This document shows positions 57,455 through 59,540 of a stretch of 64,000 nucleotides of DNA, one piece after another. The notes under the pieces are model-generated. The model was given only the letters and a program-made list of their open reading frames with translations. It was not told the origin of the DNA and searched no databases. Origin of the DNA: Sulfurimonas sp. HSL1-2 (lineage in GTDB: Bacteria > Campylobacterota > Campylobacteria > Campylobacterales > Sulfurimonadaceae); NCBI RefSeq assembly GCF_039645565.1, contig NZ_CP147914.1, positions 186,001 through 250,000 of the forward strand, written 5' to 3'. A program made the translations under genes and the position numbers. The number at the start of each line of letters is the position of its first letter. Positions within the stretch are counted from its first letter, which is position 1.

Positions 57455-57562
57455 ACGCTCTCCTTTAGACCTGTGCAATGTGCAGGCGAGGCACTGGGTC
57501 AGGATGGGAACATAGCAGCCCACCTTTTCTGTGCATGTGCCGCAGGTATCTGGAGGAGAGTT
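57455..57562 (+). ncRNA. ffs: Signal recognition particle RNA (4.5S)
   Basis: The apical domain IV is clear: GGTCAGG (57497-57503), stem ATG/CAT enclosing a GGAA tetraloop (57507-57510), and AGCAGCC (57514-57520), the asymmetric-loop signature bound by Ffh. The flanks extend into a long hairpin: CTCTCC at 57458 pairs with GGAGAG at 57555, and AGACCTG with CAGGTATCT inside. A near-ideal promoter lies upstream and GAGGA/TCCTC followed by a T-rich tract lies downstream. Exact 5' end may be near 57428. Confidence 0.92.
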
Positions 57563-57700
57563 CCTCATTACTTCTTTTTATCCACCTTCCCAAAAAACTG
57601 TTTATGAAATGTTATTGATGTTGTGCGATCATGGTCGTCGATGGTATTGAGCCCTTCCCGCTACAATGCTTTCAGACAGATCGAACACAAGGAGTGTATG

Positions 57701-57955
57701 ATGAAAACGTACAAGTTGGCGGCCATGCTGCTCGGTGCGGCCCTGATGACGGGGATCGGCGCCACGTCGGCCTTTGCGAAGTGTGACGGTGAGAAAATGG
57801 AAGCGCCGGTCAGCAAATGCAACGGCGAGAAAAAAGCGAACATGAACACCAAATGCAACGGCGAGAAAAAAGCAAACATGAACGCCAAATGCAACGGTGA
57901 GAAAAAAGAAGAGAAGCCCAAAGGCAAATGCGGCCAGGGCAAATGCGGCGGGTGA
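57701..57955 (+). CDS. HvfA/bufferin-like Cys-repeat exported peptide (candidate RiPP metallophore precursor)
   Basis: 84 residues. Signal peptide about 1-26 with an AFA cleavage site. The mature part is four exact 12-residue repeats starting at residues 27, 39, 51 and 63, each K-C-(N/D)-G-E-K plus a variable half, then GKCGQGKCGG at the end. Six cysteines (28, 40, 52, 64, 77, 82) and no aromatic residues. GKCGxGKCG is the core motif of HvfA-type precursors whose cysteines are modified to bind copper. The next gene is a DoxX protein, as in hvf loci, but no MNIO (DUF692) or DUF2063 gene lies between or nearby. ATG 57701 has AAGGAG six bases upstream; ATG 57698 is also possible. Confidence 0.85.
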   Translation: MKTYKLAAMLLGAALMTGIGATSAFAKCDGEKMEAPVSKCNGEKKANMNTKCNGEKKANMNAKCNGEKKEEKPKGKCGQGKCGG

Positions 57956-57993
57956 GCCCGCGGCAGTGAGTTTCGCGCAGGAAAGGAGCCGCC

Positions 57994-58443
57994 ATGCAAT
58001 GCCAGCTTTCCAACCTATGTAAAATCGTCGAACCGGCCGTCGAAAAGCTTCAGAGTGTCGCACTGCTTTTCGTACGGCTGATCCTCGCCTACGGTTTCTA
58101 TGAACCGGCGAAGATGAAGTGGAACGACATCGGCTCCGTGGCCGAATGGTTCGCTTCCATGGGGCTTCCACTGCCCACACTGCAGGCATACATGGCGGCA
58201 ACGACGGAAGCGTCGGGTGTCGTGCTGTTGACACTGGGGCTTTTTACGCGGCTGATATCCATTCCGCTGATGGCCGTCATGCTCGTTGCCATTACCCTGG
58301 TGCACCTGCCCAACGGTTTCCAGTCGGGCAACAACGGGTTTGAAATCCCGCTGTACTACTTCATTATGCTTTTCGTCCTGCTGACGCACGGCGCCGGTAA
58401 CCTCTCCTTCGACCGGCTGCTGTTCAAAAGCAAAGAGGCCTGA
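57994..58443 (+). CDS. DoxX-family membrane protein
   Basis: 149 residues with four predicted helices. Family features: SVALLFVRLILAYGFYEPAK in helix 1, SMGLPLPTLQAYMAATTE and LLTLGLFTRLISIPLMAVM. A pair of cysteines is in the extreme N-terminus (MQCQLSNLCK). GGAG precedes ATG. It lies 38 bases after the Cys-repeat peptide, the place of the DoxX protein HvfD in metallophore loci. Its job there is unclear; a thiol- or quinone-linked role is possible. Confidence 0.88.
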   Translation: MQCQLSNLCKIVEPAVEKLQSVALLFVRLILAYGFYEPAKMKWNDIGSVAEWFASMGLPLPTLQAYMAATTEASGVVLLTLGLFTRLISIPLMAVMLVAITLVHLPNGFQSGNNGFEIPLYYFIMLFVLLTHGAGNLSFDRLLFKSKEA

Positions 58444-58763: not shown

Positions 58764-59540
58764 TCAGTGGACGAGTTCGACGCCGAAAAGCCCGTAGAGC
58801 AGACCGCTGGCGATGAGGTAGACGCCGAAGGGCTTGAAGCTGTAGCGCGAGACGACGGCGAGGAAGGTCTTGACCGCAACCCAGCCGACGACAAAGGAGA
58901 CGACGAAACCGACGGCCAGGGCGCCGAAGTGTTCAAACGAAAGGGCCGAATACTCCTTGAGGAGCGTATAGCCCGATGCCGCGCCCATCGTCGGGATGGC
59001 GAGCAGGAACGAAAACGCCATGGCCGTGTCCCGCGACAGTCCGCTGAGCATCCCGCCGAGGATCGTCATCCCCGAACGGGAGACCCCGGGTACGAGGGCG
59101 AAGACCTGGAAGACACCGACGGCGAGGGCCTGTTTCATGCTGACTCCCTCCAGTGCTTTGACGGCATGGGTTTTGGGTTTGTAGGCGAACTCGACCGCGA
59201 GGAAGGCGACCCCGGTGAGGATCATCAGGGCAACGGTGGAGTTGGCGGCGAACATCGCTTCGATCTGTTTGTGAAAGAGCAGGCCGACGACGCCCGTCGG
59301 GATGAAGGCGGCGATGAGTTTGACCCAGAGGGCTGTACTCTGCATGAGCCGCTCGCGGTAGATCAGCATCACCGAGAAGATCGGGGCGATCTGGATGATG
59401 ATCTCGAAGGCGGTCAGGAAGGTGTCCTGCTTGAGTCCGAGCATCTGCCCGGCAAGGTAGAGATGCGCAGTGGAAGAGACAGGGAGGTACTCGGTGATCC
59501 CCTCGACGATCCCGAGGATGATGGCGTCAAAAACGGTCAT
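58764..59540 (-). CDS. uppP: Undecaprenyl-diphosphatase
   Basis: 258 residues, about eight helices. Recycles the undecaprenyl pyrophosphate carrier of cell-wall synthesis. Both active-site segments are intact: EGITEYLPVSSTAHLYLAG near the N-terminus and VPGVSRSGMTILGGMLSG near 165-185. Monocistronic, divergent from the aminotransferase gene. Confidence 0.97.
   Translation of the reverse strand: MTVFDAIILGIVEGITEYLPVSSTAHLYLAGQMLGLKQDTFLTAFEIIIQIAPIFSVMLIYRERLMQSTALWVKLIAAFIPTGVVGLLFHKQIEAMFAANSTVALMILTGVAFLAVEFAYKPKTHAVKALEGVSMKQALAVGVFQVFALVPGVSRSGMTILGGMLSGLSRDTAMAFSFLLAIPTMGAASGYTLLKEYSALSFEHFGALAVGFVVSFVVGWVAVKTFLAVVSRYSFKPFGVYLIASGLLYGLFGVELVH

Follow-up and report, generated by a model that had tools for sequence, protein, structure and literature searches.

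Sulfurimonas sp. HSL1-2 encodes an HvfA-like, cysteine-repeat peptide together with an HvfX-type DoxX protein in a complete genome that carries neither the enzyme MNIO nor its partner DUF2063. Throughout the Campylobacterales, peptides of this family are accompanied almost constantly either by MNIO or by a GMC oxidoreductase with a Gluconate_2-dh3 subunit (the GMC/G2dh3 pair). This suggests that a metal-handling peptide can also be run in another, so far undescribed, way. On balance, we favour an MNIO-independent branch of the HvfA/bufferin-EGKCG peptides, in which a periplasmic flavo-FeS complex, and not MNIO, would act on the peptide thiols. HvfA or bufferin-EGKCG RiPPs are modified by MNIO, carry 5-thiooxazole on cysteine and bind copper. 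MNIO is an iron enzyme, and in other bacteria small exported Cys-repeat peptides need it for copper binding. MNIO-less precursors exist but are rare, with 67 of 2583 Buf_EGKCG genomes, and whether they are modified was left open (Antoine et al. 2025, PMC12452194). That study mentions neither GMC nor gluconate, and a literature search covering few subscription journals found no link between GMC proteins and HvfA-type peptides.

The window, i.e. the whole stretch of 64,000 nucleotides that was analysed, contains the two co-directional ORFs recognized in the sequence-only reading, an 84-residue exported peptide and a DoxX protein, which lie 38 bp apart in the same operon and each have an AGGAG-type ribosome-binding site (Table 1). 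Another in-frame ATG is found immediately before the peptide ORF at 57698. On inspection, the product is a small Cys-motif precursor with a Sec-like signal peptide, MKTYKLAAMLLGAALMTGIGATSAFA, ending by eye in AFA. Cysteines 28, 40, 52 and 64 are exactly 12 residues apart within KCDGEK or KCNGEK units, and the spacing of all cysteines is 12-12-12-13-5. The peptide had been described as four exact 12-residue repeats, which is correct for the spacing; the sequences are not identical, as the four units KCDGEKMEAPVS, KCNGEKKANMNT, KCNGEKKANMNA and KCNGEKKEEKPKG differ. An EGKCG-type core is fitted only by the C-terminal GKCGQGKCGG, the remainder being of the type KC(N/D)GEK. In the family alignment the conserved part is the C-terminal KCGxGKCG, and the CNGEK repeats are a lineage variant within the variable middle region. 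No peptide model of Pfam or NCBIfam reached its cut-off, and DUF6683 (E 0.045) was dismissed as a chance match. The assignment of the peptide as HvfA-like is supported, and the DoxX protein, which exceeds the cut-off of the HvfX model NF050144, is a genuine member of that family.

Table 1 Coordinates of the peptide locus and of related features
Feature	Location	Strand	Evidence or remark
Bacterial small SRP RNA gene, left neighbour, outside the system	57462..57559	+	RF00169, 62.5 bits
HvfA-like Cys-repeat peptide precursor, 84 aa	57701..57955	+	sequence, family alignment, genus conservation, dN/dS
HvfX-family DoxX integral membrane protein, 149 aa	57994..58443	+	NF050144, 127.9 bits (cut-off 80); PF07681, 63 bits
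Small ORF between DoxX and uppP, 75 aa	58474-58701	-	
uppP	58764-59540	-	
G2dh3-GMC pair of the window genome	C1:~1,254,870-1,257,065		PF13618, directly followed by GMC
Lipoprotein P0003 of the window genome	L264 4035-4346 (G000:C1:~323,035-323,346)	-	one KCGAGKCG motif
Second HvfX-family gene of the window genome	L042 6375-8562 (G000:C1:~2,336,375-2,338,562)	-	
Longer P0003 relative, Sulfurimonas (example)	L169 7114-7536		KCG motifs at both ends
Met/Cys-rich peptides of genus g23	L110 4928-5596; L111 4921-5337; L120 5617-6060		
Peptide of 237 aa	L073 5243-5956		KCGEGKCG motifs
Gammaproteobacterial G2dh3-GMC loci	L201, L203, L211, L216, L218, L226, L229		with thioredoxin-fold gene

The locus of the pair is kept in five of seven other genomes of the genus that were searched; one further genome has only a more distant HvfX match and one has none. 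Four relatives encode a full-length peptide, three of them with all six cysteines in the same register, while that of G152 is a more diverged Cys-repeat peptide; in the fifth genome keeping the pair (G151) the locus lies at a contig end and the peptide is cut. The dN/dS values of the peptide among the genus relatives are about 0.10-0.21. A random variation of the repeats with frameshifts, against which the sequence-only reading wanted the relatives checked, was not encountered: no frameshift was seen, and the cysteine register is the same in three of them. In view of this conservation, the ORF is not a chance one, and the pair has been kept under purifying selection within the genus.

Regarding the flanks, the SRP RNA gene had been named correctly, while uppP is not the direct neighbour since the 75-aa ORF intervenes. 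A promoter and terminator scan of the peptide-DoxX pair returned weak sites only, the strong -10 element being that of the SRP RNA gene. To our knowledge, no role of HvfX/DoxX has been established. The second HvfX-family gene of the genome has no Cys peptide nearby; the next gene downstream encodes an FMN glutamate-synthase-like protein (PF01645), and this HvfX-GltB-like neighbourhood is seen again in about 10 relatives. As a maturase this FMN protein was rejected, because it stands beside HvfX in 10 loci but also occurs in MNIO genomes and is missing from many peptide loci.

The genome of the window consists of one contig of 2,521,190 bases and is 100% complete. Profile searches of this complete genome returned 0 matches for PF05114 (MNIO) and 0 for PF09836 (DUF2063/HvfC), and PF05114 was likewise not found in three genus-mates within the order sample. 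The same searches detect both families in relatives, adjoining HvfA-like peptides. The observation that no MNIO gene lies near the pair therefore extends to the whole genome and to DUF2063 alike.

In a first sample of 150 genomes of the order, the curated HvfX model was exceeded at its cut-off in 28, of which 8 encode MNIO. Most of the remaining 20 have a KCGxGKCG peptide adjoining HvfX. Clustering of the neighbours revealed GMC oxidoreductase and Gluconate_2-dh3 genes next to HvfX in 11 genomes, none of which has MNIO. PF13618 occurs in 17 of the 20 genomes that have HvfX without MNIO, versus 0 of the 8 with MNIO. A larger sample of 399 Campylobacterales genomes gave profile matches for the peptide in 122, for MNIO in 38 and for PF13618 in 99. 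The PF13618 proteins fall into two classes: a long one of ~250 aa in 11 genomes, 0/11 of which have the peptide, and a short one in 88 genomes. Occurrence of the peptide is associated with that of MNIO or short-class G2dh3 (Fisher p = 9e-64, in a test that ignores shared ancestry), and genomes with the peptide seldom have the two together (p = 3e-12, likewise uncorrected for shared ancestry). Because peptides near HvfX, GMC or MNIO served to build the peptide profile, there is a risk of ascertainment bias, from which only the independent HvfX-based test is free. According to the final tally, which includes a direct GMC search in unresolved genomes, 82 of the 122 carriers have the GMC pair only, 27 MNIO only, 7 both and 6 neither. 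All six of the last group are incomplete MAGs (completeness 57-95%), and all seven genomes with both belong to family f9; in the five of these with three positions known, the peptide is beside MNIO in four and beside neither in G391. Conversely, 10 of the 88 short-class G2dh3 genomes are without a detected peptide, three of them with a diverged Met/Cys peptide. Partners have been switched repeatedly within families, both modes being found inside f1, f4, f20, f6 and f9 and inside the genera g9 (f4), g25 (f20) and g57. In the HvfX tree, MNIO and non-MNIO rows are intermixed with at least three mode changes on well-supported branches; thus, one HvfX family serves both modes. Comparing the homologues of the pair across relatives, as had been recommended, therefore shows peptide and HvfX in company with either MNIO or the GMC/G2dh3 pair, a partnership of the latter with the peptide that is well supported by genomics.

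The single PF13618 match of the window genome belongs to a G2dh3-GMC pair ~1 Mb away from the peptide pair, a distance found in its genus as well. The sequence-only reading missed this distant pair, which stands in for MNIO as companion of the peptide throughout the order. In 33 of 34 genomes, peptide and MNIO are no more than 1.5 kb apart; for peptide and G2dh3 the distance is at most 3 kb in 33 of 72 genomes, compared with ~0.4% expected, and at most 6 kb in 38 of 72. In L108 and L109 the order is peptide-G2dh3-GMC with nearly abutting genes. A Sulfurimonas locus (L158) shows the same-strand run peptide-HvfX-peptide-G2dh3-GMC, the second peptide having KCSGEKK repeats that resemble the middle repeats of the window peptide. 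Another same-strand run, peptide-HvfX-G2dh3-GMC-CusC-CusB-CusA (L269), leads into Cus-type genes, and in genus g14 of family f9 the peptide gene closely follows CusB-CusA-type genes. The window genome itself has the lipoprotein gene P0003 right after that of a CusA/CzcA RND pump (991 bits, cut-off 701), with a copper P-type ATPase gene close by. This context supports copper or related metals as the probable target of the peptide. For DoxX, GMC or Cys-rich peptides, the main text of a Nitratiruptor Cd/Cu transcriptome offered no usable expression evidence. In Gammaproteobacteria, a secreted thioredoxin-fold CxxC gene (PF13899/PF03190) takes the place of the Cys-repeat peptide ahead of the G2dh3-GMC pair, a thiol setting here as well.

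Profile and fold searches relate the GMC protein to the large subunits of fructose and FAD-glucose dehydrogenases. Its AlphaFold model, with a mean pLDDT of 76 and poorer confidence near the cofactor loops, has the GMC fold, with Foldseek matches to 8jej, 7w2j and 6a2u at E 1e-32 to 1e-37, and the Cys triad of the 3Fe-4S site is kept, aligned with 212/218/222 of 6a2u. The catalytic pair of glucose dehydrogenase, His476/Asn519 (PMC6719666), is lost, the positions being Leu/Pro in 16 of 16 aligned GMC sequences. Of 80 further sequences, 74 carry the motif NL[VQIT]AGGCRFG and six depart from it. Motifs of this peptide-associated class are NL.AGGCRFG and SVPYTWTI, whereas the GMC neighbour of the long class, which we take to match Cj0415 in size, keeps His and Asn in THNTGGTTMG and GYNPTDT. 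Due to Leu/Pro in place of His/Asn, unlike in the long class, the peptide-linked class is probably not an ordinary sugar dehydrogenase. We know of no reaction of a GMC protein without the His/Asn pair, and thiol chemistry is therefore a guess. The G2dh3 subunit matches PF13618 with 35.4 bits and on inspection starts with a TAT-type signal (MITRRSLLLGG). A comparison with solved structures gave no meaningful match, the hitchhiker subunit of known structure not being matched in sequence either, and no dedicated multihaem subunit was found beside the pair.

We hypothesize that Sec exports the Cys-repeat peptide to the periplasm, where it would bind copper or related soft metals, with the membrane protein HvfX encoded beside it. 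Its thiols may be acted on by the periplasmic GMC flavoprotein with its predicted 3Fe-4S site rather than by cytoplasmic MNIO/HvfC, the GMC protein being exported by its putative TAT-signal "hitchhiker" partner, Gluconate_2-dh3, encoded elsewhere in the genome. The complex could oxidise, modify or redox-cycle the peptide cysteines. Electrons might pass via the FeS cluster to cytochrome c, and O2 would therefore not be needed as co-substrate. HvfB makes use of O2, and its substrate is the unprocessed peptide (PMC13419390); a dehydrogenase would thus be, by conjecture, an O2-sparing alternative. It is a more tentative proposal, which we consider less probable than not, that GMC proteins without His/Asn form together with G2dh3 a new class of peptide-cysteine-oxidising maturase, acting post-export in the periplasm and replacing the O2-dependent cytoplasmic MNIO-HvfC on HvfA-type peptides.

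The most serious competitor, to which we assign a minor though real share of probability, is that the peptide stays unmodified and its free cysteines bind metal with no maturation, while GMC/G2dh3 is a separate periplasmic dehydrogenase sharing a metal or redox niche or a regulon. Cys-rich metal buffering needs no maturase, the GMC gene is far from the peptide in the window genome, other KCGAGKCG proteins stand alone, among them the lipoprotein encoded after the CusA pump in that genome, and the option "not modified" was raised for MNIO-less precursors (Antoine et al. 2025, PMC12452194). However, the near-exclusivity of GMC and MNIO among carriers and the nearly abutting peptide-G2dh3-GMC order of L108 and L109 are then left unexplained.

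It is improbable that the pair represents an ordinary dehydrogenase of the gluconate or sugar type with a coincidental linkage, even though Pfam domains and fold are those of known dehydrogenases and Cj0414/Cj0415 of Campylobacter jejuni, a gluconate dehydrogenase of the periplasm, feeds cytochrome c (PMC4178425). In the Campylobacterales, pairs of Cj0414/Cj0415 size (242 + 573 aa) form the distinct class that keeps His/Asn and is never found with the peptide, and the peptide-associated class carries its own motifs; a gluconate dehydrogenase was rejected for it as a class. Least of all do we expect that an MNIO encoded elsewhere in the genome modifies the peptide, as the sequence-only reading had considered. 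Other families and genera of the order do have MNIO-HvfA pairs, but as the complete genome is free of PF05114 and PF09836 matches, and the three genus-mates of PF05114 matches, a distant MNIO is excluded at profile sensitivity and could be rescued only by an MNIO too diverged for PF05114.

Compared with HvfA/oxazolin (Buf_EGKCG) and HvfBCX of Haemophilus influenzae, the window peptide is likewise a Sec-exported Cys-repeat peptide of similar size that has paired KCG motifs and an HvfX-family DoxX gene alongside. It differs in its CNGEK-type middle repeats, and its genome has GMC/G2dh3 in place of HvfB (MNIO) and HvfC. The MNIO clusters of the same order (A-B-C-X; e.g. L031, L037, L038, L040, L271, L272) share homologous-looking peptides, the C-terminal KCGxGKCG and HvfX; in contrast, MNIO and DUF2063 adjoin the peptide there and the GMC/G2dh3 pair is missing with few exceptions. 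With fructose and FAD-glucose dehydrogenase (7w2j, 6a2u) the pair has in common the GMC fold, the 3Fe-4S Cys triad and a small hitchhiker-type subunit with a TAT-like signal, but it has Leu/Pro at the catalytic positions, no adjacent multihaem subunit and a linkage to Cys peptides or thioredoxin-fold genes. Cj0414/Cj0415, from phylum relatives, are periplasmic members of the same two Pfam families, yet with a longer Gluconate_2-dh3 subunit and no association with peptide or HvfX. MNIO-less precursors are an acknowledged puzzle, and a complete MNIO-free genome with a near-exclusive substitute pair makes the question of their modification testable. Should the partner indeed be the GMC complex, copper-handling peptides would have a second enzyme solution, possibly one independent of O2, and the function of HvfX apart from MNIO could be learned in a natural system.

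Three related kinds of protein were observed besides. In genus g23, Met/Cys-rich exported peptides (KCGSGMM...) are encoded directly upstream of G2dh3-GMC without HvfX. Longer relatives of P0003 occur near GMC in Sulfurimonas. In the 237-aa peptide of L073, the KCGEGKCG motifs are split by a long, helical-looking region of KDAVVNTAVNAKD repeats.
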